From contig NZ_JAFVMF010000014.1 of assembly GCF_017377715.1 (NCBI RefSeq), positions 62,001 through 126,000 of the forward strand: a stretch of DNA of 64,000 nt, in the 5' to 3' direction. Position numbers and translations under genes: made by a program. This stretch comes from Acetobacter sacchari. GTDB taxonomy: Bacteria; Pseudomonadota; Alphaproteobacteria; Acetobacterales; Acetobacteraceae. This document shows positions 8,311 to 60,420 of the stretch, in pieces. The notes under the pieces were generated by a model. That model saw nothing but the letters and a program-made list of their open reading frames with translations. It ran no database searches and was not told the origin of the DNA. The number at the start of each line of letters is the position of its first letter. Positions within the stretch are counted from its first letter, which is position 1.

Positions 8311-8670
8311 TCAGAAAATCTCCGGTTCCACTGATGCTTCTTCACGTCTAACAGTGTCGCCCTCGCGCAAGAACGTGGCAATATCGTCAAGCGTGATGCA
8401 ATCCAGTATCGGAGCCAGACTTAGCGCCATGTGCCGTTCGATAACGGCTGGACACTTGGCAACACGCCCGATGACTCCCGCCAACGCGAACGCCGTCTGG
8501 GTAGCGTAATCCAACACCTGAAGTTCAATCGACAACGCGTCGTTGCCCCCAGGAACCTCGATTTTACCCATCACCCCCTGCAAGCTTTCGAGCCTACCCC
8601 CAAGAGACGAGGTCAGTTGACTGATTCGCTCCAGCGCTGTACTCAAAGATACGTCAGACTCCATAATCAT
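8311..8670 (-). CDS. CheT-like chemotaxis protein with DxxxQ motif
   Basis: The last gene of the chemotaxis operon encodes 119 mainly helical residues. Its start overlaps the cheD stop as ATGA. Its position after cheD is that of cheT in the Sinorhizobium meliloti che operon. The segment LQVLDYATQTAFAL contains D-x-x-x-Q, the motif CheZ-type phosphatases use on phospho-CheY and which has been noted in CheT. The family assignment rests on gene order plus this short motif, so it is an inference. It could be a CheY-P phosphatase or a modulator of CheR. Confidence 0.6.
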   Translation of the reverse strand: MIMESDVSLSTALERISQLTSSLGGRLESLQGVMGKIEVPGGNDALSIELQVLDYATQTAFALAGVIGRVAKCPAVIERHMALSLAPILDCITLDDIATFLREGDTVRREEASVEPEIF

Positions 8671-9197
8671 ATATCCGCCTCATGCTCTGGAAACGGAATT
8701 TCATTTTTTCCTCTCTGATCCATCATAGTCCCGTCGCCGACGGCGTCCTGCATCCAGGCATGTTGCACCCGACCGCTCACCGGCCAAAATCTTATCCGAC
8801 GTCCTTTCGACCCACCCAGACTAGACGAAACACGATTAATTCTCTCCGAAGAAAGATATTTTCGAATAGATTCGGAATTTCGGTCCTCAATATCGCGCAA
8901 CAGTGGCTGTACTGTCGCGCCACCAAATACTTTACACTGCAAGTTGCCCCTGCGGGCTCCACGCAAAAGAAGGCTGTCTACCAAAAACTCCATGACGTGC
9001 AAACCAGAAGACGATGTTGCTTGCGACGAAATGAGAGCGAGATTCGGCAAGAGAAAATGATTCATACCGCCTATTTTCGCCCCCGTGTCGAATAAGCAAA
9101 CAGAAACACAAGATCCCAACAGGGTGACAAGGACGTCCGCAGGATCGGAGGATACCTTGACTTCTCTCAATATGACGTCGACGATCCGACACGACAT
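8667..9197 (-). CDS. cheD: Chemoreceptor glutamine deamidase CheD
   Basis: CheD deamidates Gln residues of chemoreceptors and can bind CheY or CheC-type proteins. The family core is clear: VLVTLLGSCVSVCLFD with the catalytic Cys, GGMNHFLLP with the catalytic His, and KVFGGATV. ATG 9197 (176 aa, MSCRIVDV...) aligns with usual CheD starts. A GTG at 9233, which overlaps the preceding cheY end by 17 bases, would add 12 residues. The stop overlaps the cheT-like start (ATGA). The C-terminal third from about residue 130 is less conserved. Confidence 0.9.
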   Translation of the reverse strand: MSCRIVDVILREVKVSSDPADVLVTLLGSCVSVCLFDTGAKIGGMNHFLLPNLALISSQATSSSGLHVMEFLVDSLLLRGARRGNLQCKVFGGATVQPLLRDIEDRNSESIRKYLSSERINRVSSSLGGSKGRRIRFWPVSGRVQHAWMQDAVGDGTMMDQRGKNEIPFPEHEADI

Positions 9198-9216
9198 TGC
9201 ACTACATGAAAGCGCG

Positions 9217-9610
9217 TCAGACCGTAATGACACCGAAAACTGCCTCTATTGCGGCTTTCAATTTGCCCACAGTGTAGGGTTTGGCCAACAGATTATTTAC
9301 GCCGTGCTTTATCGCTTCCTGCACCAAGTCTTTGCTAGCTTCTCCTGTCAAAATAATAAAAGCGACTTTCGTCGTTTTAGGATTCGTTCTTATGTGCTTC
9401 AATAAGTCCAAGCCATTCATTTCCGGCATATTGAAATCCGAAATAATGAGGTGGGCCTGATTTTCTGAAAAAAAAATCCAGAGCTTCCTTGCCATTTCTC
9501 CGTTCAGAAACCTGGAACACTCCCAATTGGGCAAGACTATTTCTTAATAGAGTACGTATTGATGTCTGATCATCAACGATCAAGACTCGAATTGCCGACG
9601 CGGCGGGCAT
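9217..9610 (-). pseudogene. cheY: cheY response regulator, frameshifted in a nine-T run
   Basis: Two overlapping frames together make one complete CheY receiver. The first starts at ATG 9610 and reads VLIVDDQTSIRTLLRNSLAQ; the second resumes with HLIISDFNMPEMNGLDLLK (phospho-acceptor Asp), LTGEAS and KPYT and ends at 9217. The break falls at nine A's at 9468-9476 (nine T's on the coding strand). With eight, the frame joins as ALDFFSENQAHL, as expected for the fold. As given, translation yields 77 residues lacking the phosphorylation site. Start and cheB stop overlap (TAATG). The cause may be a sequencing error, slippage or a true mutation. Confidence 0.85.
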
Positions 9611-10669
9611 TATCGCACTACTCCCGGCTCAATTGAGCGAAACTCTGCCGCTACCGAAACTATCTCAGATAGAGACATCACCCGCGCCACTGCTCCCTTC
9701 TCCGCAGCCACCCGCGGCATACCATAAACGACGCAACTTGCTTCGTCCTGCCCGATGGTTAAAGCTCCAGCTTCACGCATGGCACCCAATCCGGCAGCCC
9801 CGTCAGAGCCCATCCCAGTCAAAATAATTCCCAAACTACGTGGACCAAAATTCTCTGCCGCCGAAAGAAACAATTCATCAATGGAAGGACAGTGGCCATT
9901 TACAGCCCCCCCCCGGCGCAAGGTCGCAAACAAATTTCCCCGCATTGCGATCGATTCGAAGGTGTCGATCACCTCCCGGCGCGATATAGACCGTGCCCGA
10001 ACGAAGAACATCCCCTTGCCCGGCCTGCACAACCGAAACATCGCACAATCGATTCAGCCTTGAGGCAAGGCTCGCCGTGAACAGACGCGGCATGTGTTGT
10101 GTAACCACTACGGGCAGTGCGTCGACTGTCAGCGCAGGAAGAATCTCCCCTAGCGCCTCCACTCCACCGGTAGACGCGCCAATGAAAATAGCTTCTATCT
10201 CGGATCTCATAATGTTGGGTGAAGTTTCATCGCGCATTTTGGGCGCCGCGAGCGGATTTCGCCGTCGTGGTACACCAAAGGCTGCCGCCTGCTTTACGAT
10301 CGGGACCAACCGGGCGTAACCAACGATACCCTCCCCCGCCAAAGGTTTCGGGAAGCAATCGAAGGCGCCCAGCCGTAACGCCTCTATCGAAAGATCAGCC
10401 CCTCTCTGGGTAAAACCCGAAACCATTACAACAGGGATGGGACGAAGACGCATGATTTTCTCGAGAAATTGCAGACCGTTCATCGTTGGCATTTCGACAT
10501 CCAGCGTGATCACATCGGGCTGATCAGCGATGATCATATCCCGCGCTTCGATCGGGTCATTCGCCATCCCCGCGATTGTCACGGCTGGGTCACTCCGAAG
10601 AGCAGAAGCGATTAACGCTCTGCCCGTACGTGAGTCATCAACGACTAAAACGCGAATCGGCCTGTTCAT
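9610..10669 (-). pseudogene. cheB: cheB chemotaxis methylesterase, frameshifted in a nine-G run
   Basis: CheB removes methyl groups from chemoreceptors. The first frame (from ATG 10669) holds the receiver (VLVVDDSRTGRALI; phospho-Asp in VITLDVEMPTMNG) and the start of the esterase with the catalytic Ser in FIGASTGGVEAL and His in VVTQHMPRLF. It then hits nine C's at 9906-9914 (G's on the coding strand) and ends at 9878. The esterase continues in another frame as [14 protein letters not shown] and [13 protein letters not shown] (catalytic Asp) to 9610. Eight G's would restore the gene. The ATG overlaps the cheR stop (ATGA). The uncorrected product lacks the catalytic Asp. Confidence 0.88.
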
Positions 10670-11523
10670 TGTATCCTCTTGTAATAAGTATTCGGGCAGG
10701 AATCGCTCAACGCCATGGGAATCAAATGCTCTGGAATTTTTTCAGAGTGCCCAAGATATAAATATCCGCCCGGAGAGAGGCAGGGGAAAAGTCTACTCAA
10801 TATCAAATTCCTTTGACCCTCCTCAAAGTATATTGTGACATTTCTACAAAATATGACTAAAAAATCTCGACTAAATGGCCAATTCGACAGGAGATTGAGA
10901 CGTCGAAAAGTGACCATACTTTTCACTTGTTCCACGACAGAAAAATGATCATTCACAGGGAAAAACCATTGACTCTTCGTATCGTCTGATAACTTTTCTA
11001 CTTTGTATCTAGAATATATTCCAGATTTCGCGATATCAATCATTTCCGCGCTTATATCCGTTGCCAGCACTTTTATATCCCAACTGAGAGCCTCGGGAAA
11101 TGAACTCAGTATCGTCATAGCAATCGAATATGCCTCTTCGCCCGATGAGCACGCCGAGGACCATATCCTGACCGGAGCACCCCGCCGAGCGCGGGAAATT
11201 AGCTCGGGCATTATTACACGGCTCATATGCTTGAAGTGATGATTTTCCCGAAAAAAACTCGTAACATTTGTCGTGAGCACGTCAATCATTCGATCGAATT
11301 CATCAGTTCCTAGCGAGCTCGTAACAAATTTTATGTAGGTCGAGAAATTTGAAAAATTGCAAACTCGAACGCGTCTAGAAACTCGCGAATATACCAAGGT
11401 TCTATTCAATCTCTCTCTGGAATATCCACATTTTTCACAAACTATATCCTGTATATTTCTTATATCATCTGGGCAGTACGGCACATCAGAAAATTCATCT
11501 TTGAATCCAACACCGTGCCTCAC
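10666..11523 (-). CDS. cheR: Chemotaxis protein methyltransferase CheR
   Basis: CheR transfers methyl groups from S-adenosylmethionine to glutamates of chemoreceptors. The 285-aa product is the usual length, with an N-terminal helical domain and FSNFSTYIKFV, then LTTNVTSFFRENHHF, the SAM-binding WSSACSSGEEAYSIAM, FCRNVTIYF and the late LGHSEKIPEHL. The start is GTG 11523, overlapping the cheW stop as GTGA; the stop overlaps the cheB ATG. Base composition is AT-richer than the flanking chromosomal genes. This gene is intact, unlike its neighbour cheB. Confidence 0.95.
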   Translation of the reverse strand: MRHGVGFKDEFSDVPYCPDDIRNIQDIVCEKCGYSRERLNRTLVYSRVSRRVRVCNFSNFSTYIKFVTSSLGTDEFDRMIDVLTTNVTSFFRENHHFKHMSRVIMPELISRARRGAPVRIWSSACSSGEEAYSIAMTILSSFPEALSWDIKVLATDISAEMIDIAKSGIYSRYKVEKLSDDTKSQWFFPVNDHFSVVEQVKSMVTFRRLNLLSNWPFSRDFLVIFCRNVTIYFEEGQRNLILSRLFPCLSPGGYLYLGHSEKIPEHLIPMALSDSCPNTYYKRIQ

Positions 11524-11999
11524 GTCACCGAATCCAATATCGTCGCAGCGACCACATCCAGATTTAGAACACCCACCATTCGGTCGTTGATCGCGATGAG
11601 GCCCGACACAAAGCCTTTGTCCTTATCGGCTGCGACATTTGGAACCCCCTGAACCATAGACTTTTTAACATCGATTATATCAGAAACACTATTTACTAAA
11701 AATCCGAAAATTTTTTCTGAAATTTCAACTACCATAACAACGTCACGCCCACCGTCCTTATCTACAGAGTTACCTAGCAGATGACGCATGTTTATAACAG
11801 GAAGCACAATTCCTCTAAGATTGATCACTCCACTAACAAAATCTGGAGCGAATGGAATCGGAGTCGCTCCTAACCAACCGCGAATTTCTTTCACTTTCAA
11901 TATATCAACACAATATTCTTGTTTTCCCACTTGAAAGGAGATAACTTTTTCTGACCCATCGTCAGTTTCTTGTCGTAGAAAATCTGTCATGTCGTCCAC
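11520..11999 (-). CDS. cheW: Chemotaxis coupling protein CheW
   Basis: CheW links chemoreceptors to the kinase CheA at the cell pole. The 159-aa protein shows the CheW fold in order: VISFQVGKQEYCVDILKV, then IPFAPDFVSGVINLRGIVLPV (conserved NLRG region), then VNSVSDIID and a C-terminal hydrophobic strand. It overlaps the cheA end by 13 bases and the cheR start by four, so the operon is tightly coupled. Composition is AT-rich like the rest of the cluster. Confidence 0.95.
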   Translation of the reverse strand: MDDMTDFLRQETDDGSEKVISFQVGKQEYCVDILKVKEIRGWLGATPIPFAPDFVSGVINLRGIVLPVINMRHLLGNSVDKDGGRDVVMVVEISEKIFGFLVNSVSDIIDVKKSMVQGVPNVAADKDKGFVSGLIAINDRMVGVLNLDVVAATILDSVT

Positions 12000-13909
12000 T
12001 CCGACGAGCGTTGCACGACGTTTGCGAATTCGTTCGGGTATGGTAATTTACACATGTTTTCCGAGCCTATGTGAATTATAGACGACGTGTCCAAAACCAA
12101 CGCGACATTTCCGTTTCCCAAAATAGTTGCTGCTGAAATACCGCGAGTCGCACGAAAATTCTTTTCTACATTTTTGCTTACAACCTGCATCTGCCCATCT
12201 ATACCGTCGGCTAACAACGCCACTCTATTTCCGTCGTCATCTTCAACAACCAGAATAACTTCACGGCCCTGGACGTTTTCACCCACTGAAAATCCTAAAA
12301 CAACGCCTATATCGAGTAACGGCATAAACACGCCGCGTATGGAAAGCGCGGGAATGCCGTCTCCCATCAAAAATACATCTTCGCAATTGAACAACATCGT
12401 TTCAACTATGCATGAAACTGGGAGAATAAACGTTTGCCCACAAGAGGTGATCGCCATTCCCTCGATTACCGCGAGCGTTAATGGTAAACTCAAAAGAAAT
12501 GTGGAACCGACACTTTTTTTTGAAAAAATTGCCACACGCCCCCCAACATCAAGTATCGCTCTTTTCACGACATCCATACCCACCCCTCTCCCGGACAAAT
12601 CGCTGACTGTAGATGATGTCGAAAATCCTGGGAAAAATATTAGATTATCTATTTCATTCTCACTCAAATTAGCTTGAGAGTTAATAATTCCTTTCTCAAC
12701 CGCGATTGACCTTACGCGCTCCCTGTTAATTCCGCCGCCGTCATCTGCCACTGTAATTATAATTCTCCCCGACTTTTGACTCGCAGATAAGCGAATTGCT
12801 CCTTCGGCGCTTTTTCCATTTTTCAACCGATCTTCCGCCGACTCTATCCCATGATCAACCGCATTTCGCAGCATATGCGTGAGAGGGTCTGTTAGCCTTT
12901 CGATCAAACTTCGATCGATTTCTGTGTCCTCACCTTCCATCGTTAGCTGAATCGATTTTCCGGTTGCGTGAGCCGCTTCACGCACAACTCTTTGCATTCT
13001 CTGAAAAACTGTGCGCAGCGGTTGTGCTCTGACAGCCATTACTGCATCTTGGATATTTCTCGTGAGTTGATCGATATCGCCTAAGGCGTTTTCTATGGAT
13101 ACTGGTTCTGTTCCCTCCCGATGGTTTTTCTCATACTTTTCTCGCAATGTTGCTTGGCCGATTACCAACTCGCCGACCAGATCGACAAGTTTGTCTATTC
13201 TTTCCAAATCAACTCTAATAGTTACGGAATTATTTTGAGAATTTACTTTGAGCGCGGTCGCAGCGCCTTCCGCTTTTACATTTCCTATTTTGTTATCTAA
13301 ACTTACCTCAGAAAAATTTTTCGACTTTTCACTTTCTTCGCACGATGAATTGTCCTCGATAGCCTCGAATATTTCAAACCCAACGTCAAATTCGTCGCCT
13401 ATTACATTATCAATTTCTGACAACTCCATGGAAACTGGAGAAAACAACGGTGCGTTTCCTCGCTCTTCGTCAGTTTCTTCTGCATCATCGTTTCGATTTT
13501 GGGTTGTATTTTTTTTTAACGAATCATCGCAATCAAGAGAATTGAGTTCTTTAATACTTTGATCCTGCTTTTCAAGCGGCTGAGCTAATCCCTCACGCTC
13601 CGCTCTTACTGAATCGCTGAGAACGTCAGTAGCTCTAAGAAATATTTTTATGACGTGAGAATCAGCATCAATCTTTCTCGATCGCAAAAGATCAAAAGCT
13701 GTTTCAAATACGTGCGCGAAGCGCACTAGGTCCGGCATCCCAAACGAGCCGGCTCCTCCTTTTACAGAATGAACGGACCTGAATGCCGCATTAATAATTT
13801 CTTCAGTAGCACCACCATCTTTGATTATTTCTAAATTTTGTTCAAGCTCACTCAGAAGCTCATCACACTCCTCGAAAAATATATTTTTTATGGAATCAAA
13901 ATCGTCCAT
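11987..13909 (-). CDS. cheA: Chemotaxis histidine kinase CheA
   Basis: CheA phosphorylates CheY and CheB in response to receptor state. From ATG 13909 (GGAGAG just upstream) there are 640 residues. The HPt domain carries His near residue 47 in FRSVHSVKGGAGSFG. A long acidic Ser/Glu-rich linker follows, with no clear CheY-binding P2 domain. Then come P3 (IDKLVDLVGELVIGQATL), the ATPase P4 (HMLRNAVDHGIE, VADDGGGINRERV, GRGVGMDVVKRA) and a C-terminal CheW-like P5. A longer in-frame ATG at 13933 would overlap the cheY tail. The gene is AT-rich and has several long T/A runs but stays in frame. Confidence 0.95.
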   Translation of the reverse strand: MDDFDSIKNIFFEECDELLSELEQNLEIIKDGGATEEIINAAFRSVHSVKGGAGSFGMPDLVRFAHVFETAFDLLRSRKIDADSHVIKIFLRATDVLSDSVRAEREGLAQPLEKQDQSIKELNSLDCDDSLKKNTTQNRNDDAEETDEERGNAPLFSPVSMELSEIDNVIGDEFDVGFEIFEAIEDNSSCEESEKSKNFSEVSLDNKIGNVKAEGAATALKVNSQNNSVTIRVDLERIDKLVDLVGELVIGQATLREKYEKNHREGTEPVSIENALGDIDQLTRNIQDAVMAVRAQPLRTVFQRMQRVVREAAHATGKSIQLTMEGEDTEIDRSLIERLTDPLTHMLRNAVDHGIESAEDRLKNGKSAEGAIRLSASQKSGRIIITVADDGGGINRERVRSIAVEKGIINSQANLSENEIDNLIFFPGFSTSSTVSDLSGRGVGMDVVKRAILDVGGRVAIFSKKSVGSTFLLSLPLTLAVIEGMAITSCGQTFILPVSCIVETMLFNCEDVFLMGDGIPALSIRGVFMPLLDIGVVLGFSVGENVQGREVILVVEDDDGNRVALLADGIDGQMQVVSKNVEKNFRATRGISAATILGNGNVALVLDTSSIIHIGSENMCKLPYPNEFANVVQRSSEWTT

Positions 13910-13919
13910 AAAATCTCTC

Positions 13920-14296
13920 CTATTTTTCGTCAACTATACGATTGATAGCTCGCACAAGAACTTCCGGTACAAACGGCTTAATGATCCAACCTGTGGCACC
14001 CGCATTTCGCGCAAGAATTTTTTTTCTTGACTCATTTCTGTCGTGAGAACAAGTATCGGAGTCTTTTTTGTTAAATCCAATATTCTAATATTACTTATAA
14101 ATTCATACCCATCCATGCGAGGCATGTTCAGGTCGGTTATTATCGCGGCGGGAGCGCAGGCGAGAGACTTCACCAATTGAACGCCATCTAAGCCGTCGAT
14201 CGCCTGCCGCACCGTATAGCCAGCATCGATTAGTATTTTATTCAGTAAATTTCTTATGGTGATCGAATCATCGACTGTGATAATAGTATTTGACAT
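13920..14296 (-). pseudogene. cheY: cheY response regulator, frameshifted in an eight-A run
   Basis: The receiver starts at ATG 14296 (MSNTIITVDDSITIRNLLNK), with the phospho-acceptor in IITDLNMPRMDGYEF and VLTTEMSQE. After eight T's at 14018-14025 (A's on the coding strand) the given frame reads unrelated residues and stops at 13934. With nine A's the other frame continues LARNAGATGWIIKPF, including the conserved Lys-Pro, and stops at 13920, 10 bases before the cheA ATG. The restored protein is about 125 residues, the normal CheY length. As given, the last helix and the conserved Lys are lost. Confidence 0.85.
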
Positions 14297-14315
14297 TTTG
14301 TTACTTTCCATGTAT

Positions 14316-15839
14316 TTAAAAGTCTTCCCACCCGTCATCTGACGGTATTTTACTGTCGACATGTTTTGTTTTTTGAATATTTTTTTGTTCTATTTTATCA
14401 AAGGATACCAAAGATTTTGTTTGTTTCGTTTTCTGGCCCAGGCTACGAATATGATCCTTCATATGAAAATCACCCACGAGATTTTCAAGATCCCTCGTTT
14501 CTCTGGTAAGATTGTGGCTCGCTGCCGTTGTTTGTTCTACCATCGCCGCATTCTGCTGCGTCGTCTGGTCCATTTCCCCAATAGCCCTGTTAATTTCAGT
14601 CAAATTCTCAGCCTGCTGGTGCGCCGATGAGGAGATGTCTTCGATCAATGATGATATGGTACCTACATTGTGTGATATTTTCGATAGTGCCGCGCTTGTC
14701 TGTGTCACCAACGTTACCCCGCGGGAAACCTGACGGCCCGACAATAGGATAAGTTCCTTAACATCTTTAGCAGAGGCGGCGGAACGTTGTGCAAGCGATC
14801 TAACTTCCGTGGCAACAACAGCGAAACCGCGTCCTGCGTCGCCTGCCCTTGCCGCTTCGACTCCAGCGTTGAGCGCCAGAAGATTCGTTTGAAATGCAAT
14901 TTCGTCTATAACACCCAATATATCAGCGACTTTTTTTGAGGAATCCTCTATTTCCCGCATGGCTTCTATGGTCGACTTCATCACCGCACCGGACTCTGTG
15001 GCCTCGTCACGAGCGCCGCCCGCCGCTTTTCTGGCATCAAGGGCGGCCTGCGCTGTTTTCTGAACCCCAACAGTAACTGTATTTACAGAGGCGGCTGTCT
15101 CACCAAGATTGGCAGCCTGCCTTTCAGTACGACGGGCCAGATCGTCAGACGCTAATGCAATTTCCGACGAGCCCGACGCTATTGTCGCTACGCTTGACGC
15201 AACTCGTCCAAAAATTTCGGCTAATTTATCAATCGATTCGTTAAAGATATTTTTTTGAATTTGATATTTATTATCTATAATATTATCGGAACGATATCCA
15301 AAGTCGCCAGCAGCGAGCTTCTTCATCGCGTCCACCATCTGCTCCAGAGCCTGGTTCGCTGAATCCCTTTCTTTTTCCGCTAAATCTAAACGTAGTTGAA
15401 TACTATTTTTCGATACATTTTCGTTTTTCAATTCTTTTTTTAAATAATCCATGCGATCGACGAATTTCAAACTGGCGTGCTCGATGGATTGACGCAACCC
15501 CTTTATTATACCAAATTTAAAAGAAGAGGAATTAAGATTTATCGGCGATGAAACGTCTGCTTGACTGACGAATCGAATTACCTCAAGAATAGGTGACTTT
15601 ACTTTTTTAACAAAAAACATAATTATAGGAAAAGTAGAAAATAAAAACAAGGCAAACGTAAATAAAATTAACAATGGAGAAAAATTTCCAATTTGTAAGC
15701 GCAAAACTATAGGAAAAATACACAAGAAAATTATCACACAACTTATGTACGCCGAAACAAAACTCTCTAAAGAAGAACGAAGCAGGCGCATTTTTTCACT
15801 TCCACTCGCGGGTCGAAATTTAAATTTTTGACTCCGCAA
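14316..15839 (-). CDS. Methyl-accepting chemotaxis protein without a periplasmic sensor domain
   Basis: The 507-aa receptor opens the che operon. Two hydrophobic helices near residues 25-80 are separated by only a few residues, so there is no periplasmic ligand domain. A helical linker leads to the signalling hairpin, whose tip reads [18 protein letters not shown]. The extreme C-terminus is DGWEDF after a charged tether, similar to the pentapeptide that binds CheR or CheB in other receptors. Position matches icpA in rhizobial che operons. Input is probably cytoplasmic or membrane-borne; the ligand is unknown. Confidence 0.92.
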
Positions 15840-15903
15840 CAGCTAACCCCCGTTCACCGGGTCCTATCAAACTCATGTAAATACCGAATTTTGATAAAAA
15901 ATG

Positions 15904-15955
15904 GTTACCAAACGCGTTAAAGCGCCTCGATGCCCCGCGTCAACTTTTTGGTAAC
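15904..15955. promoter_or_regulatory. Inverted repeat in the divergent receptor promoter region
   Basis: GTTACCAAA at 15904-15912 is mirrored exactly by TTTGGTAAC at 15947-15955. The arms are nine bases, separated by 34. The repeat lies between the divergent mcp (start 15839) and globin-coupled receptor (start about 16022), a natural place for one regulator to control both. No matching known operator comes to mind. Confidence 0.45.
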
Positions 15956-16021
15956 GTGTTCGGAATTATTTTTAAATTATGCTTTTTAAGCCGCTCTATT
16001 GTCTTTCGACAGGATTCCGAC

Positions 16022-17536
16022 GTGAACAATTTGCATGATGACATACAACGCAAACTACAGTTCCTGGGGTTAGGCACACGCGAGTGCGATATCATTCGCT
16101 CAGCCCAACCAGACATTATGAAGGCCATACCTGCGGGCCTGGATCTCTTCTACGAAAAAATTTTACAAGTTTCCGAGCTTTCAAGTTTTTTTGAGAATTC
16201 AGAGCATATAAAATCTGCAAAGGGTCGCCAAAAGAGCCATTGGCATTCTGTCACTGACGCGAAATTTGGTTCAGATTATATTACCGCGGTTACCGCAATC
16301 GGGAACATGCACGCCAAGCTTGGATTGAATCCCGGCTGGTATATTGCTGGTTACAGTGTCCTTTTAGGAGAAGTCGTTCGTAGCGTAATCAAGGACGCGT
16401 GGCCGTCCTCTAAGCGATCCTTATTCTCTGCTCCGGCTCCGAAGAGCGGAGGCGAGGAACTGGGTGAACAGATCGCGCTGCTGATCAAGGTCGTCCTTCT
16501 GGATATGGATTTAGCGATTTCGACCTACCTGGAGAATCTGGAGGGCGCAAGAGTTCGAGCGCAGGAAGCCAGGATAGCAAGCCTCGATACACTTGCCTCT
16601 GCTTTAGATCGCGTCGCAGAGGGGGACCTCCTACTCGGCGATTATGAGGCCCTGTCACATGACGGAGGGCGTTTGGAAGGGGCTTTCGCCAACGTCATCA
16701 ACGGCCTTAGCGAGATCATCCTTGAGGTGAGACATTCGTCCGAATCGGTGGAGGTTGGCGCTCGCGAAATTCGCAAAGCAAGCGAAGAGGTATTACAGAG
16801 AATTTCTGAGCAGACCACAGGTCCTCAATCGGTCTGTAATACAATTGGCCCCTTGGCGGATTCGGTAAAATCTGTCGCTCAACGAGCAAAAAGCGCCGAT
16901 GCCGCTGTTTCTCTTTGCGGCCGGGAGGCACGGCAAAGCCGAACGGTAGTTGCGGAAACGATAGCAGCAGTAGATCAGATCGCCGAATCTTGCGGAAAGA
17001 TAAGCCAGATAATTGGGCTCATCGAAGAAATCGCACTTCAGACCAACCTCCTGGCCTTGAATGCAGGAGTAGAAGCTTCGCGTGCGGGTGACGCCGGACG
17101 GGGTTTTTCGGTCGTCGCCAAAGAAGTCCGTGCTCTGGCGCAACGCTCGGCAGGTGCCGCAAAAGAAACGAGGGCTCTTATTACCACTATCGGCGAGGAT
17201 GTCACAAAGGGCGTGAAGCTGGTGAACGAAACCGGTGTTGCGCTCGAAAGTATTTCCCGATCTGTTGTGGACGCTGGAGGACTGGTCGGCGAAATCGCCG
17301 AGGCAGCCGAAGAGCAGGCCCTCAGAATTGACGAAATCAATGCCGGGGTAGTTACGCTGGAACGCGAGATGAGAAGTAATGCAGCCATGATGCGGCGAAC
17401 CACAGGAGTAAGCCACGAGCTGGCGAGAAACTCGACTCACCTGATGCAGCTGGTCATGAACTTCAAGGTTCATGACCAGAAGCGACGACAGCGCGTTTCC
17501 ACGGGACGAGAACAGGTGGCGACGTTCCCACCGTAG
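16022..17536 (+). CDS. Globin-coupled chemoreceptor (HemAT-like aerotaxis sensor)
   Basis: A soluble receptor with an N-terminal protoglobin domain (residues about 1-170) and a C-terminal signalling domain. The predicted proximal haem ligand is His near residue 97 in IGNMHAKLGLNPGWY, the hallmark of globin-coupled sensors. The signalling tip is [18 protein letters not shown]. There are no membrane segments and no C-terminal CheR tether. GTG 16022 with AGGA upstream is preferred because the protein then begins just before the globin fold; an in-frame ATG at 15956 would add 22 residues. It is expected to report oxygen to the adjacent che genes. Composition is closer to the host than that of cheA. 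Confidence 0.9.
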   Translation: MNNLHDDIQRKLQFLGLGTRECDIIRSAQPDIMKAIPAGLDLFYEKILQVSELSSFFENSEHIKSAKGRQKSHWHSVTDAKFGSDYITAVTAIGNMHAKLGLNPGWYIAGYSVLLGEVVRSVIKDAWPSSKRSLFSAPAPKSGGEELGEQIALLIKVVLLDMDLAISTYLENLEGARVRAQEARIASLDTLASALDRVAEGDLLLGDYEALSHDGGRLEGAFANVINGLSEIILEVRHSSESVEVGAREIRKASEEVLQRISEQTTGPQSVCNTIGPLADSVKSVAQRAKSADAAVSLCGREARQSRTVVAETIAAVDQIAESCGKISQIIGLIEEIALQTNLLALNAGVEASRAGDAGRGFSVVAKEVRALAQRSAGAAKETRALITTIGEDVTKGVKLVNETGVALESISRSVVDAGGLVGEIAEAAEEQALRIDEINAGVVTLEREMRSNAAMMRRTTGVSHELARNSTHLMQLVMNFKVHDQKRRQRVSTGREQVATFPP

Positions 17537-40321: not shown

Positions 40322-40828
40322 ATGGAACTTCCACCCGAACTTGTTCAAATTTCAGGCGGGGACGTAGAAATTTGGGGTTATTATAACCCGGTGAAAGCAC
40401 GCGACGTGGTAGAATCCGTAAGGAAAATTACCAACGCTCAGACAGACAAAGAAAAAAAGACGATTCTGCATATCATGTCAGGGACGCATGGCGCATGTAA
40501 CCAGCGCATCGGCGCGGTAAACCCACAAGCAGCCGAAAGGCAGTTCTATAAGGAGGACAAAGCGCTTCGCGGCAAACAATCGGAGAATGTTACGGTCGAA
40601 GTTCATGAGTTCAACACGGAATTTCTCATCAAGACGAGGTCTCTTGTAAGAATTAAAAATCCTTTTTCAAGCTCAAAATACAAAGAGGACAAATTAGCTG
40701 GAACAACACATTCAATGTCAACGTTGAATAGAAAACTTCGCCTTCTGGTGGAAAAGAACACCGATTGCAAACATATATTCCTTTTAGCCTATTGCTGCAG
40801 CGCCGGAGAGAAATTGTCTGCTCCATGA
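40322..40828 (+). CDS. AT-rich orphan protein with caspase-like His/Cys pattern
   Basis: A 168-aa cytoplasmic-looking protein without signal peptide or membrane segments. I do not recognise a family. Two features recall caspase/CHAT-type peptidases: a beta-strand ending in TILHIMSGTHGACN (His56-Gly57) and a second ending in HIFLLAYCCSAGE (Cys158/159-x-x-Gly). The protein stops only nine residues after the second motif, shorter than a full caspase-like domain. The gene and its upstream 240 bases are clearly AT-richer than the neighbours, which suggests acquisition. No good ribosome site precedes the ATG. A catalytic role is an inference from two short motifs. Confidence 0.6.
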   Translation: MELPPELVQISGGDVEIWGYYNPVKARDVVESVRKITNAQTDKEKKTILHIMSGTHGACNQRIGAVNPQAAERQFYKEDKALRGKQSENVTVEVHEFNTEFLIKTRSLVRIKNPFSSSKYKEDKLAGTTHSMSTLNRKLRLLVEKNTDCKHIFLLAYCCSAGEKLSAP

Positions 40829-47348: not shown

Positions 47349-47951
47349 ATGGCTTCTGCTCCGACCGAAACGATCTACACGAATTTCCGCGACGCCCCCC
47401 TGACGGGGCGGCTTCTGGTCGCGACGCCTGCATTGTCGGACTCAGATTTCGCCCGCAGCGTCATCTACATATGCGCCCACTCTACAGAAGACGGCGCAAT
47501 GGGGATCGTGGTCAATCGGCGCCTGTCCCAACCGGCGTTCGACGATCTGCTTCTTCAACTGGACATAGCTCCAGCTCCTCCGCGCCGACGCGTCTCGCTG
47601 TGCGCTGGCGGACCCGTGGAATCCATGCGCGGTTTCGTCCTGCACTCCTCCGACTGGAGCGGGGACGGCAGCATGACGGTCGACGAAGGCGTGTCCCTGA
47701 CGGCCAGCCTCGACATCCTCAAGGATATCGCCGCCGGGTCTGGCCCGCGCGACGCACTGCTCGCCCTTGGACACGCAAGCTGGGCGGCGGGACAGATCGA
47801 GGAGGAAATCGCCCGTCACTCCGCATGGCTGGTGGCCCCGGCGACACGTGACATTCTTTTCGGCGTCGATCACACGGGCAAGTGGCGCAAGGCTTTGGCG
47901 GGGATCAACATCGATCCGCTGCGACTGGCGCCATTTGTTGGCAACGCTTAG
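47349..47951 (+). CDS. YqgE/AlgH (UPF0301) family protein
   Basis: A 200-aa protein with the UPF0301 pattern: LTGRLLVATPALSDSDFARSV near residue 19, MGIVVNRRLS near 50, CAGGPVESMRGFVLHS near 84 and LGHASWAAGQIEEEI near 137. The biochemical role of the family is not established; AlgH influences alginate production in Pseudomonas. This is the last chromosomal-type gene before the accessory island. No ribosome site is obvious before the ATG. Confidence 0.92.
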   Translation: MASAPTETIYTNFRDAPLTGRLLVATPALSDSDFARSVIYICAHSTEDGAMGIVVNRRLSQPAFDDLLLQLDIAPAPPRRRVSLCAGGPVESMRGFVLHSSDWSGDGSMTVDEGVSLTASLDILKDIAAGSGPRDALLALGHASWAAGQIEEEIARHSAWLVAPATRDILFGVDHTGKWRKALAGINIDPLRLAPFVGNA

Positions 47952-48333: not shown

Positions 48334-48612
48334 ATGAGGCTTTTAACTCTCGACGAATTTAATCAGGTAGCGGGGGGCGCGCCCCCTCCTCCACCCGGCG
48401 ATGAGCAGATTGAAGTCCGGGGGACAGGTCCATACGCTCCTGGCGGAATTACGGGCGTAACTTTGGGGGGCTTAACTCCAGTAGGGGGAGGAGGGGAGGC
48501 CATGGTTACGGAGCGTGGACTTCTGCCGCGTGGGGGCGGCTTTCCAATGCTTTATTTGGTTCCGGTCAAACCACCATTACTGACCCATCTGGTCAGATCT
48601 CGGATGCGGTGA
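48334..48612 (+). CDS. Bacteriocin-like peptide precursor with double-glycine leader
   Basis: The 92-aa frame starts MRLLTLDEFNQVAGG, matching the class II bacteriocin/microcin leader pattern (Leu/Glu-spaced helix ending in Gly-Gly), cut by peptidase-containing ABC exporters. The segment after the GG is Pro/Gly-rich (APPPPPGDEQIEVRG, then TLGGLTPVGGGG). AAGGA lies eight bases before the ATG. From about codon 70 the frame looks unnatural (LVPVKPPLLTHLVRSRMR), while a neighbouring frame continues as protein-like sequence to 48740. A one-base loss in a G run (for example at 48530-48534) is therefore likely. No ABC exporter is in the window. Confidence 0.65.
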   Translation: MRLLTLDEFNQVAGGAPPPPPGDEQIEVRGTGPYAPGGITGVTLGGLTPVGGGGEAMVTERGLLPRGGGFPMLYLVPVKPPLLTHLVRSRMR

Positions 48613-48740
48613 AGGCGTGCATGCAAAACGGAGGAAGCACTGCAACGTTCACTGGAAGTTCCGGCGGGATGACCATAGATGGCAGGGTTATTTCTGGATC
48701 TGGGAATAGCGCCGTATATCAATTCACTTGTCACAAGTGA
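48545..48740 (+). pseudogene. Probable C-terminal part of the peptide precursor in the other frame
   Basis: In the frame one base earlier than the precursor, the sequence reads FGSGQTTITDPSGQISDAVK, then CMQNGGSTATF, RVISGSGNSAVYQ and FTCHK before TGA at 48738-48740. It has natural composition and two Cys that could form a disulphide. There is no start codon with a ribosome site of its own. Joined to the leader by one added base, it would give a precursor of about 135 residues. Confidence 0.55.
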
Positions 48741-49445
48741 AACTTGTTTTCCTGATATGTATAATGTAGAAATAGTGTGCAAGATTCTTGTAAAGCCATT
48801 GTGGAAACTCGAAATGGCGGGTTTTCATGAAGCGCCGTATGTATTCAGGCTATGGGTGGAGTTGCTATCAACCCACTTTTATCCATGGCGGACGGTTTAC
48901 AGGTGGTTTCGCAAGCTGCTTTCTGCGTCAGACTATGCAAGACGTTAAAATTATGCGCAACCAAAAGCGGACGGCTAGCAAAGCCTCTCAAGCAGGTCGC
49001 CTCCGCGACAATCAAAACATCATGGTTCAGGATGCAGAGGTCCAGATTGTGACGCAGGCAAGAGAGATCATCGGCCACACGCGCCATATGGAAGTTGATA
49101 TAGTTGCCCGTCGCTCTTAATCGAATTCACCCTCACAGATCTTTCAGCAGTTGGCCATATGAGCGTCGACGCTAACCGCGAATAGGTTATCTGGTCGCAG
49201 ATAAGTCCCACGATCGATCGCAAGTGATGAACAGCATTACCTTTTCGTATATACGGTTGAGCTCATACTGCGGTCATATGCGACACGAGCTCGCCCCCCG
49301 CTCGTGGTCATGGGTGATTAAACAGACATTCGGCAAGATGATGCGCGGACACCGTGACCCAGATTGCTCTGGACAAAATCACACTATATAGAGGTTTTTT
49401 TCTTTAATATACAAAACGAATAAGAAATTTAATCGAGGATTTATT
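48741..49445. other. Accessory stretch between peptide precursor and S41 peptidase
   Basis: About 700 bases of mixed composition. Overlapping short frames exist on both strands (48679-48948, 48827-49120 and 48852-49052 plus; 48845-49087 minus), but none has a clear ribosome site or a family I recognise. An immunity gene could be hidden here, or remnants of a lost gene. The last 100 bases are very AT-rich and should carry the peptidase promoter. Confidence 0.4.
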
Positions 49446-50897
49446 ATGAGGAAAAAGTTTATAATTTCTTTAATTATTACCAGTATTTTTATAATAGTTT
49501 TATTTTCGACTTATAAGGCGGTTTTTATTGATGCAGATTTTGTTTACGGACGATTTTGGGTTACATTAAATGAAAATTACTATAAAATCAATAATGATAA
49601 CTTCAATTTCTCAGATATTGAGAATAATTTTCGTCCAAAAAACAAAAATTCAGAATATTTATATGATTATTCTTTTAGTAATATACTGAACATTATGCCT
49701 TCTTCCCATTTTTATATCACCCCACCGCCGTCTGTTGTTTCAAAAACTGGGAAAATAATATTTGCATCAACTGGAATGGATATAAGCCCATCTAATTTAA
49801 TTTGCTCGGGTGTCGTAATTTCTTCTTTTCGTTCAATAATTAGACCACAAATAATCGGCGTGGACAAACAGAGTCCTCTTTCCGGACAGGGGATTGGTCT
49901 TGGTTGGCGCTTTGTTGCCGCGGAGACATCAGAGAACGACTCTTCAAATATAATTTTGACATTATATGACAATGGGGGGAAAATTCGAAAATTTCATATA
50001 AGAAAAAACCCATACATATTGTCAGATATAGAAAAAATATATTCAGAAATGAGATACAACTTAAATCCGGACAGGAATATCACCTTACCAAATTTAGGAA
50101 TTATCTCCACATCCGGCCGCGACGCCCAACTTCCAGAAGTATCGTATATTATACCAAACAGCCAAGCGGTAAATGAGCGTGTATCAATCGGTGATAAAGT
50201 CAAATTTCTCGAAACCGTCAATGGCGGCAAAGAAACACATATAGTTTTTACAAAAAAAACAAATGAAGAAATAAAGATGAAAATAAAAAACTCGTGCGTG
50301 AAAGATGGATTGTTCGGAAAAAGGGATATTAAGGTCATTAATAAAAATATCTCGTATGTTAGGTTTGATCGATTTGATAAATACTCTTTAGATTGGTTGC
50401 AAGAAAATGTTAAATACCTCTCAAATGACATAATCATTGATTTTAGGCGCAATCGGGGTGGGTTGATTTCTGTATTAGAAAACTTTTTGGGCATGTTTTT
50501 AGGTCCAGATAAAAATATAGGTTCTGATATCAGAAGGTTCACTACTATAACAGAAAAAACGCCATCAGATTCGCAGAAGATAAATTCTGGGAGGATAGTC
50601 ATCTTGTTAGGAAAAGCTACTGCAAGTTCTGCGGAGATCGCATCTGACATATTACGTTTATATAGAGGAGCTATTATCGTTGGTGAAACGTCAAGTGGTC
50701 AGGTTCTGACTTCGAGTTCTTTCTCTCTTCCAGATAATGGTAAAGTTGTATTGCCAATAGGAGAGTATCGAGATCCTTCTGGTATGACGCTTGAAGGGGT
50801 GGGCGTGTCTCCAGATCAAGTGATAAATTCACAGAATGCCGACCAAAAAGAGACGGATTTTTATTTGGAATTATCTAAATTATATTTAACAAAATAG
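49446..50897 (+). CDS. Membrane-anchored S41 family peptidase with TASSAE motif
   Basis: A 483-aa, strongly AT-rich gene (many Asn, Lys and Ile codons), unlike the GC-rich chromosome. An N-terminal hydrophobic helix (residues 5-22) anchors or exports the protein. The peptidase domain covers about 300-465: YVRFDRFDKYSLDWLQ, DIIIDFRRNRGG, then GKATASSAEIASDIL with the catalytic Ser, then VGETSSGQ and GVGVSPDQV. The Lys of CtpA-type enzymes is replaced (SSGQ), so it is closer to the tricorn-like branch. TASSAE is also the active-site motif of nisin resistance protein NSR, which cuts a bacteriocin. Beside a double-glycine peptide gene this suggests immunity or processing, not proven. Confidence 0.85.
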   Translation: MRKKFIISLIITSIFIIVLFSTYKAVFIDADFVYGRFWVTLNENYYKINNDNFNFSDIENNFRPKNKNSEYLYDYSFSNILNIMPSSHFYITPPPSVVSKTGKIIFASTGMDISPSNLICSGVVISSFRSIIRPQIIGVDKQSPLSGQGIGLGWRFVAAETSENDSSNIILTLYDNGGKIRKFHIRKNPYILSDIEKIYSEMRYNLNPDRNITLPNLGIISTSGRDAQLPEVSYIIPNSQAVNERVSIGDKVKFLETVNGGKETHIVFTKKTNEEIKMKIKNSCVKDGLFGKRDIKVINKNISYVRFDRFDKYSLDWLQENVKYLSNDIIIDFRRNRGGLISVLENFLGMFLGPDKNIGSDIRRFTTITEKTPSDSQKINSGRIVILLGKATASSAEIASDILRLYRGAIIVGETSSGQVLTSSSFSLPDNGKVVLPIGEYRDPSGMTLEGVGVSPDQVINSQNADQKETDFYLELSKLYLTK

Positions 50898-51682
50898 TTT
50901 TTTAGTTTGCTGTTTTCTGCAAAAATAAACACCACGAAAAATTGCCGACCTCTGACGTTTCTGCGACTGGTTACTGGAGTGACGTTAAGCTGCGCCAGGA
51001 ACTGCATGAGTTGGTTGCTTTCATGGTCCCAGCTTCCAATAATTTCGCCCATTTTCTTCCGTCATTCTCGCAACAAATTATCGCCGCACCTGAATTCAAC
51101 GACTGGCTTCGCCGCCAGACAAAGCCAAACAGGCTGCCCCTGCCGTCATACGCGGCACGCACCTCTCGATTTTGTTCGCCGCGAGGTGCATGTCATCGAT
51201 CATCATGCGTTCCGTCCCTCTGGCTGGTTGGACAGCGTCGTCCCAGTCCGAACAAAGACGCGTCGCCGACGCAGGTCTTGCCACAATCAGTTGAGCGACA
51301 AGGGGCAGTCACGCCGGAAACACCCCGCCAGTGCTTTGCTACACAAGCCACCTGACAGCGTAGGTAGACGCCCTTCTCGGCACGGCGAGCCCTTCTCTCA
51401 TGAAAGCCGCAGGCCGCGCACCCTCGGCTGAGAGAAACGCATCGAACGACGTCCTGTTTAATCTACATCAGGAATTGGAAGCCGAAGCCGGGCGCGACGA
51501 AATCTCCGGCTGTGCGCGCGAACACGTCGATCAGAGCTTTCGCCGCTCCTATAAAATTCACCGCGGCAGCGACACGCGCGCGCCCAATCCTTGCAACTCC
51601 TTCAGCAAGATCAACCGACGCTGACCCGCGACGTTTGCAGATACACGGCCATACCCCGTTCATTTCCCGCTCTACGACAACG
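50898..51682. other. Accessory stretch between S41 peptidase and mop
   Basis: Nearly 800 bases without a convincing gene. A frame at 50942-51355 begins plausibly (LRQELHELVAFMVPASNNFAHFL is broken by unlikely residues later) and an adjacent frame takes over near 51120, suggesting a decayed gene. A minus-strand frame at 51463-51690 has Ala/Val-rich content but no ribosome site. I could not match either to a transposase or any other family. Composition returns to GC-rich by about 51100. Confidence 0.4.
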
Positions 51683-51780: not shown

Positions 51781-51987
51781 ATGAAACTGAGCGCACGGAA
51801 CCAGATCAAGGGGACCATCTCCAAAATCGTCAAAGGCGCCACGACGTCGCATGTCACGATCGACATTGGCGGCGCTTCCGTCATGGCGTCGATCACCAAC
51901 GAAGCCGTCGAGGAGCTCGGCCTGACGGAAGGGGCGGCTGCGTTCGCAGTCATCAAGGCCTCGGACGTCATGGTGGCCGTCGAATAG
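51781..51987 (+). CDS. mop: Molbindin (TOBE domain molybdate-binding protein)
   Basis: A 68-aa protein that is a single Mop/TOBE domain: MKLSARNQIKGTISKIVKG, then VTIDIGGASVMASITNEAVEELGL and AFAVIKASDVMVAVE. Molbindins assemble into hexamers that store molybdate or tungstate in the cytoplasm. AAAGGAT lies just upstream of the ATG. It stands alone with no mod transporter genes in the window, but has its own repeat-rich promoter. Confidence 0.93.
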   Translation: MKLSARNQIKGTISKIVKGATTSHVTIDIGGASVMASITNEAVEELGLTEGAAAFAVIKASDVMVAVE

Positions 51988-59304: not shown

Positions 59305-60420
59305 GTGCCGTCGATCAAAAAGACCGAACAACAACTGGCGGCCTCAACGTTGCGAATCCACACTGTTCTGCCATTGCTCACAGCGTTTTTTCTCAGTGGG
59401 TGCTATGAGATCGGCCCGACACGGCTCGACCGTGATCAGAGCGATTATTCCAGAGCCCTGACGAGCGCGAGCAAGCAGCAGACATTGTTGAATGTCGTAA
59501 GACTGCGCTACGCGGACACTCCGGGATTCCTTGATACGACGCAGCTCATTTCCGGATATCAGTTACAGCGCAACGTATCTGTCGGCATCGGGACCTATTC
59601 GGTCGCAACGCGGCCTTACGGCGGCATCGCGGCGCAATTGCAGGAGAGTCCGACCTTCACCTTCCAGCCGGTCACGGGGGACGCCTACGCGGAAAGCTTT
59701 CTCCGCCCGCTTCCACCCGCCAACCTGCTCCCGCTCGTCATGGGCGGACTGCCCATCGACGTTCTGTTTCGACTGTCCGTTCAATCAGTCAATCTGATCA
59801 ACAACGTTGGCCCTATGGGGGGAGAGAACGCTCGCGGAACTCCGGTATTTTTTGACCTTCTATCCGACCTGAGAGCGTTGCAGCTTGCCGGCCTGCTTGG
59901 CATCCAGCTTGAGAGGACGCCACAGACGCAGGGAATGGAAGCTCAGCCAGACCGCGTCTACCTCTCCATCATGTCGTCCGATGATCCGGTCTTATCCGGA
60001 GTCGTCCGCGAAGTAAGGCGCCTGCTGGGAATGGCCCAGAACGATGAACGGGTCGAAGTCACTTATGGCGGCGGGCGCCCGCGTCCAGGACAAATTCGCC
60101 TTCTGACCCGGACAATTCTCGGCGTTCTGGGACAGATCGCCTATCAGATCGAGGTTCCGCAGGATGACATCGTCTCCGGTCGCACGCGACCGACAATCAG
60201 GCTGACAGGGCACGAGAAACGTCCCATTGTCGTGATTCACGTCGCGAATGAAAAACCTGATTCGGTCTTTGTATGGACCACGTACAATCATAAATACTAT
60301 TGGATCGCCGACAACGATTATGACAGCAAACTGGCTTTCACGATGTTGCAGATACTTCTCGAACTCTCCAAGACAAGCAAGGAGCCGAACACAATCGTAA
60401 CCATCCCGGCGAACGGTTGA
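59305..60420 (+). CDS. Predicted lipoprotein of unknown function
   Basis: A 371-aa protein with a lipoprotein signal peptide (TVLPLLTAFFLSGCYEIG, lipobox LSGC), so probably attached to a membrane facing the periplasm. The mature part begins with a polar segment and LLNVVRLRYADTPGFLDTTQ, seen as a conserved-looking block. No catalytic motif is evident. GTG 59305 is the most upstream start and has no ribosome site; TTG 59350 would shorten the signal peptide by 15 residues. It follows piuC by 210 bases on the same strand. I do not recognise a named family. Confidence 0.75.
   Translation: MPSIKKTEQQLAASTLRIHTVLPLLTAFFLSGCYEIGPTRLDRDQSDYSRALTSASKQQTLLNVVRLRYADTPGFLDTTQLISGYQLQRNVSVGIGTYSVATRPYGGIAAQLQESPTFTFQPVTGDAYAESFLRPLPPANLLPLVMGGLPIDVLFRLSVQSVNLINNVGPMGGENARGTPVFFDLLSDLRALQLAGLLGIQLERTPQTQGMEAQPDRVYLSIMSSDDPVLSGVVREVRRLLGMAQNDERVEVTYGGGRPRPGQIRLLTRTILGVLGQIAYQIEVPQDDIVSGRTRPTIRLTGHEKRPIVVIHVANEKPDSVFVWTTYNHKYYWIADNDYDSKLAFTMLQILLELSKTSKEPNTIVTIPANG

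Follow-up and report, generated by a model that had tools for sequence, protein, structure and literature searches.

We examined a 64,000-nucleotide stretch of the Acetobacter sacchari genome (the window; contig 37, bases 62001-126000, in a draft assembly of 4.55 Mb), in which an open reading frame (ORF) that starts with a double-glycine (GG) leader is followed, on the same strand and 0.7-0.8 kb further on, by a gene for a membrane-anchored S41 peptidase with the motif TASSAE. The original prediction, made from the sequence alone, took the two genes as one AT-rich island encoding a peptide and a peptidase that would either protect the producer or mature the peptide. We found that the leader and the peptidase are real, but that the two genes are neither both AT-rich nor a single island. 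Instead, we think it likely that they lie in a turnover interval with three unrelated pieces: an orphan and probably disrupted GG peptide gene, a dead insertion sequence and an independently acquired S41 peptidase.

A decayed insertion sequence lies between genes of different composition

The GC content is 58.4% in the peptide ORF, 46.2% in the gap and 34.3% in the peptidase gene, compared to 57.8% in the whole window, and the low-GC stretch, with an onset at about 49400, is essentially the peptidase gene. Both ORFs have plausible ribosome sites. Searches with pieces of the gap against plasmids gave weak matches to IS5-type transposases (E 0.3-9), and Pfam searches with the broken ORFs of the gap gave no match. 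With IS5-type transposases from Lichenicola and Gluconobacter plasmids as tblastn queries, we found three collinear pieces in three frames, which scored 39.6, 33.4 and 29.4 bits (combined E 2e-14), while 100 shuffles gave no more than 27.5 bits; the query transposase from L136 is Pfam DDE_Tnp_1/DUF4096. Judged by these alignments, the gap holds a dead IS5-type insertion sequence, which would be a second piece unrelated to the peptide gene.

The same site in two congeners holds molybdate transport genes or their relics

In one congener (G011), with flanks 91.7% and 92.7% identical to those of the window, modA, modB and a modC-like gene occupy the interval from the algH-like gene to the Mop gene. 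The modA and modB products exceed the NCBIfam cut-offs, and the modC-like ATPase scores 209 bits, below the cut-off of 285, with 204 of the 353 family positions matched. In another (G042), whose flanks are 96.6% and 95.7% identical, the place of the 3.7 kb of the window is taken by about 650 bp that align with modABC; this genome is 68% complete, and its site is contiguous. The island of the window is absent from the site in both congeners, and no match to the peptide was found in either genome. Five further congeners (G044, G015, G027, G025 and G018) aligned on the left flank only. Since G011 still has the operon, G042 has relics and the window itself carries a modA relic, we conclude that the window stretch replaces a decayed molybdate operon; the interval would be a turnover site left by this decay. 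We also note that modABC has decayed in the window genome and in G042, not in G011, and that the Mop protein is retained beside it.

The leader resembles those of C39 exporter loci in the genus

We built a leader profile from 14 leaders of C39 loci in the genus (one from the own genome), with the window ORF excluded. On this profile, MRLLTLDEFNQVAGG scored 12.96 and ranked first among the 3,761 window starts (runner-up 4.94), compared to 8.01 for the best of 35,457 control starts in 593 kb of control loci; for this count, one remaining copy of the window ORF was set aside, the other copies and the C39 loci having been removed beforehand. The 14 leaders behind the profile themselves reach 23.7-33.3, and by comparison the window leader is a divergent member. 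The ORF lies outside other genes, with an AAGGA ribosome site 8 bases upstream of its start at 48334. It is highly improbable that the leader ORF is a chance match with no peptide gene there. Such a view would fit a peptide core for which no homologue was found, and a simple GG regular expression with one match in the window and one in 60 third-order Markov copies, a single match from which about one occurrence per genome is extrapolated; against it, the profile score exceeds all control starts bar the one copy of the same ORF, the ribosome site is good and the ORF is clear of other genes. Thus, by its profile score, MRLLTLDEFNQVAGG is a genus-type GG leader, beyond chance; a GG leader had been predicted.

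A C39 peptidase ABC exporter was found in 20 of 49 genus genomes (own included), at 22 places in all. The own genome has one (G000:C100), on a different contig from the window and with a peptide of its own, MRELSAVELDTVSGG (L026:13541-13957, 139 amino acids (aa)). We examined 21 of the 22 loci (20 of the 21 congener places and the own locus). A short ORF with a GG leader stood near the exporter at 17 of the 20 congener loci, or at 18 without the start filter, and the congener leaders were of the type MRELT..E...VSGG or MKNLN..E...VSGG. These C39-associated GG peptides fall into no fewer than three kinds: ten have 128-144 aa and are mostly Cys-rich, five have 86 aa and are glycine-rich, and two have 56-57 aa. 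NCBIfam gave no meaningful match for the own 139-aa peptide or for one each of the 128-144-aa and 86-aa kinds, and a plasmid search with one of the genus C39 peptides gave no match. The window ORF would be an orphan gene for a peptide of the kind that a C39 exporter of the genus cuts and exports, and the resident exporter could process its leader in trans.

The peptide gene has probably lost its frame

A second frame is open at 48414-48740, and its last 66 codons are 56% G/A/S/T/N, compared to 21% small residues over the final 38 positions of the annotated frame; among 3,000 shuffles, 0.4% matched the 56% content and 3.7% had a 108-codon open run. From this small-residue tail, it is quite likely that the peptide gene lost its frame after about residue 55; the annotated 92-aa ORF probably does not represent the genuine precursor, and the peptide is likely not made in full. 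The apparent break may be a sequencing fault. The hairpin found where the peptide region ends is weak: its 8 bp stem has 3 GC pairs, and 3.9 kb contain 8 sites of this sort where 3.8 are expected.

We did not find an intact precursor conserved in relatives, among the 100 genomes searched with the strongest places fetched. The peptide search gave a match at E <= 1 in 45 of these genomes (own included), the best other match having E 0.004. At the 30 other loci fetched as best matches (19 from the peptide search and 11 from a search with the tail, with ORFs inspected at 12 and 5 of them), the strict GG pattern found no leader, and a looser pattern gave chance-like matches at three. We set aside one GG look-alike, MRTFDEFHQLAG in G033 (L017), which runs antisense to a long ORF. 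In the 49 genus genomes, a search at the DNA level for D-E-F-x-x-(hydrophobic)-A-G matched at 21 places in 15 genomes; one is the window ORF, and none of the other 20 was judged to be a GG-leader precursor. Plasmid searches with the peptide ORF or its tail gave no match, the corresponding DNA search gave one match of 27 bases, which we took as chance, and the peptide ORF had no match in Pfam, NCBIfam or PHROGs.

The S41 peptidase has a candidate Ser-His dyad

The predicted membrane-anchored S41 peptidase was borne out: the S41 domain (Pfam PF03572, E 7e-25) spans residues 301-459, residues 2-22 form a hydrophobic N-terminal helix in the structure model, and Ser394 of TASSAE stands in the catalytic column of an alignment with the nearest relatives. 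In addition, His88 (PSSH) is aligned with the His of the relatives' (D/S)SH motif, and Gln419 stands where C-terminal processing proteases (CTPs) carry Lys. This arrangement suggests a Ser394-His88 dyad. Our S41 motif script matched 26 of 42 loci (16 did not match), which gave 25 distinct proteins, L004 and L046 holding the same one. The Lys at the CTP position is present in 20 of the 25 and absent in the window peptidase, L043, L046, L049 and L050, while TASSAE occurs in one, the window peptidase, with Ile (TASSAEI), not Met, as the seventh residue.

A single-sequence structure model had a predicted local distance difference test score (pLDDT) of 33. A six-sequence model gave a good S41 core, with residues 91-290 mostly poor (mean 54.5). 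The best structural matches were S41 folds of the CtpA/CtpB/IRBP type (Z about 20-22). The nisin resistance protein (NSR), to which the original prediction had likened the peptidase, matched with Z 19.7 (257 residues, 4.7 A), whereas CtpA matched with Z 22.1 (227 residues, 4.8 A); a fold match to NSR was thus obtained, but NSR was not singled out. Since the Z scores of CTP, IRBP-type proteins and NSR are close together (22 to 19.7), the structural ranks do not place the peptidase. With one N-terminal helix as its anchor, the peptidase probably faces the periplasm, where it would probably cut envelope or incoming peptides by means of the Ser394-His88 dyad.

No close relative of the peptidase turned up in any collection that we searched. 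At E <= 1e-20, it matched in 1 of 120 relatives (itself only) and in 2 of 398 phylum genomes (itself and G491). Among 385 class genomes, two gave matches at E <= 1e-17, namely to the peptidase itself and to a CtpA-like protein. These genome sets overlap. A profile search at E <= 1e-15 matched 384 of 397 family genomes, with 614.9 bits for the own protein and 96.2 for the next; since only the own genome exceeded 100 bits among the best matches listed, we take the others to be housekeeping CtpA-like proteins. There were matches in 59 plasmid records, at no more than 30% identity among the 40 matches listed and none spanning 80% of the query, and in 25 phage records, at no more than 29% identity among the 10 matches listed. 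Viral contigs gave no match with the single protein or with the A2 or A4 query, and two loci with the same protein with the A1 query; genome contigs gave none with the single protein and five loci with the A2 query. PADLOC and PHROGs gave no match for the peptidase. Besides the peptidase, the own genome encodes at least two S41 proteins, each with Lys at the CTP position.

The nearest relatives, from Pseudaquidulcibacter saccharophilus (L046) and a Gluconobacter thailandicus plasmid (L043), are 27% and 24% identical, respectively. NSR came 26th of 31 phmmer matches with E 0.011; the top chain had E 9e-18 and the top bacterial S41 protein 1.6e-10. In a profile comparison, NSR had E 4.1e-5 and the top match 6e-51. 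In sequence, the nearest relative of the peptidase is not NSR; what stands of the proposed likeness, by alignment, is the likely Ser-His site and TASSAE.

Evidence on whether the peptide and the peptidase belong together

Twelve loci that carry S41 relatives, with flanks of 1.5 to 8 kb and from about 10 separate sources, showed no GG-leader ORF by the strict pattern (L028 and L046 from one genome, L043-L045, L047-L050, L104, and L105 and L106 with one protein; L047 has only 3.4 kb). This pattern found the leader at 19 of the 21 C39 loci. A match of the looser pattern at L043 was an oxidoreductase and was set aside. Conversely, there was no S41 gene near the 21 C39 loci examined, own included. 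A literature search at the level of titles and abstracts gave no described GG-peptide/S41 pair of this kind.

It is improbable that the two genes form a pair in which the S41 enzyme shields the producer from the exported peptide by cleaving it, in the way that NSR cleaves nisin, or matures the peptide in the periplasm. The genes do share a strand and lie close together, the GG leader is true, the genome has a C39 exporter, and the likely Ser-His site and TASSAE are as in NSR. These parts of the earlier interpretation hold, but the pairing is not supported: the genes differ greatly in GC content, an IS5 relic lies between them, the peptide region ends in a weak hairpin, the peptide frame is probably broken, the two did not recur together at the S41-relative or C39 loci, and NSR is distant by sequence. 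The IS relic and the GC contrast outweigh the co-occurrence test as evidence against the pair.

Several observations weigh against a turnover interval with three unrelated pieces. The IS relic may have inserted between partner genes, and separate arrival is not proven by it. For want of close S41 relatives, the co-occurrence test has little power and is not decisive, and the history of the peptidase has no relative by which to trace it. One distant relative, the S41 gene of a Pseudoalteromonas xiamenensis plasmid (L045, 24% identity), stands upstream of a small hypothetical gene, an HlyD-type adaptor and an ABC transporter; that transporter has no annotated C39 domain, and the S41 gene lies downstream of a TonB receptor gene. 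Codon usage statistics do not discriminate between the two peptide frames, and genome, plasmid and DNA searches gave no homologue to prove the frameshift. The peptidase frame is intact, and the enzyme may still serve some peptide. As for the dyad, the region around His88 was modelled with low confidence, and its geometry is not reliable in the model; L047 has the DSH motif yet carries Lys at the CTP position; and Tricorn_C1 was not detected in the window peptidase (Pfam, E <= 1).

That the peptidase is a lone acquired enzyme of envelope defence or scavenging, directed against antimicrobial peptides of other microbes in an NSR-like role and with no partner here, is unlikely, though it agrees with the membrane anchor, the S41 core, the Ser-His arrangement by alignment and the patchy presence (no match at E <= 1e-20 in 119 other relatives); the substrate role is predicted, and the inspected contexts of distant relatives differ. 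A diverged C-terminal processing protease with ordinary envelope protein turnover is very unlikely: the best structural matches and the Pfam S41 domain would fit, but the catalytic Lys is replaced by Gln, the genome already has other S41 genes that keep the Lys, and the composition is low in GC and foreign. We also give little credence to a divergent tricorn-type Ser-His peptidase with an NSR-like mechanism, taken up as a periplasmic guard against GG peptides of its own genome or of congeners, many of which have C39-exported peptides. If the peptidase does guard against GG peptides, protease-type peptide resistance would extend from the Gram-positive NSR to a Gram-negative lineage that carries such peptides. 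The turnover interval corrects an attractive false pair: proximity in such an interval, with an IS relic between, does not make a system.

Features of the locus and the rest of the window

Table 1. Features of the variable interval and its flanks (window coordinates)
Feature	Coordinates	Strand	Remarks
AlgH-like (DUF179) gene	47349..47951	+	Conserved left flank of the variable interval; Pfam PF02622, E 9.5e-44
ORF with double-glycine leader, 92 aa	48334..48612	+	Starts MRLLTLDEFNQVAGG
Probable original C-terminal part of the peptide, other frame	48540..48740	+	Inferred; rich in small residues, two Cys
Terminator-like hairpin, weak	48723..48741	+	End of the peptide region
IS5-type (IS12528-like) transposase, decayed	48862..49355	+	Three pieces, collinear and each in a different frame; lies in the gap that separates the two genes
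S41 peptidase, membrane-anchored, 483 aa	49446..50897	+	TASSAE with Ser394, candidate His88 (PSSH), Gln419 at the CTP lysine position
modA relic of a former molybdate ABC transporter operon	51312..51676	-	Alignment to modA of congener G011
Mop-type TOBE-domain protein, right flank	51781..51987	+	Pfam PF03459, E 7.3e-16

The algH-like gene is present in 47 of the 49 genus genomes at E <= 1e-20, own genome counted. The right-flank protein is one that we take to be Mop; its Pfam family was matched. Searches with the stretch 50942-51352 gave no informative match, and repeat, Rfam and tRNA scans of the region gave nothing useful.

Elsewhere in the window, a lower-GC chemotaxis block (8667-17536; genes of 42-56% GC) lies within the GC-rich background and holds cheD, cheB, cheR, cheW, cheA, a response regulator and two methyl-accepting chemotaxis proteins, one with a protoglobin domain; the CheB match spans just 81 of the 174 positions of the methylesterase domain. 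A 168-aa ORF of 44% GC (40322-40828) had no Pfam match at E <= 0.01, and a 371-aa ORF (59305-60420), which adjoins a low-GC stretch at 60-61.5 kb, had none at E <= 0.001.

Comparison with known systems

The window leader has the same length as the leaders of the genus C39 exporter peptides and shares M, R, L, T, E, V, G and G in the register of MRELT..E...VSGG. It differs in that its gene does not adjoin an exporter, its core is unlike the 128-144-aa and 86-aa peptides, and its frame is probably broken. The exporters are of a type that we presume to be called PCAT, and we likewise presume the name S41A for the C-terminal processing proteases, from which the peptidase differs in that the Ser-Lys dyad is not present (Gln419).

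With the S41 proteins that we take to be tricorn-type (L046 and L043), a name presumed save for the Pfam domain Tricorn_C1, the peptidase shares the N-terminal motif YY...(D/S)SH and the S41 core, and it lacks the CTP lysine as do L043, L046, L049 and L050. It differs in its overall identity of 24-27% to L043 and L046, in its poorly modelled middle region and in the domain Tricorn_C1, which Pfam detected in the three relatives tested (L043, L046 and L049) and not in the peptidase.

The peptidase differs from NSR in its length (483 aa compared to the 312-residue solved chain), in TASSAEI compared to TASSAEM, in matching CTP and IRBP-type proteins much better by sequence, and in its surroundings, as none of an NSR-type operon was seen among the ORFs around it. 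As NSR (PDB 4y68) is described, the two have in common the S41 fold, an N-terminal anchor, TASSAE around the catalytic Ser, the absence of the CTP lysine and a His available from the N-terminal part. Since the membrane-associated NSR of Streptococcus agalactiae uses Ser236 and His98 as catalytic residues (PMC4698656), the mechanism of the peptidase may resemble that of NSR.

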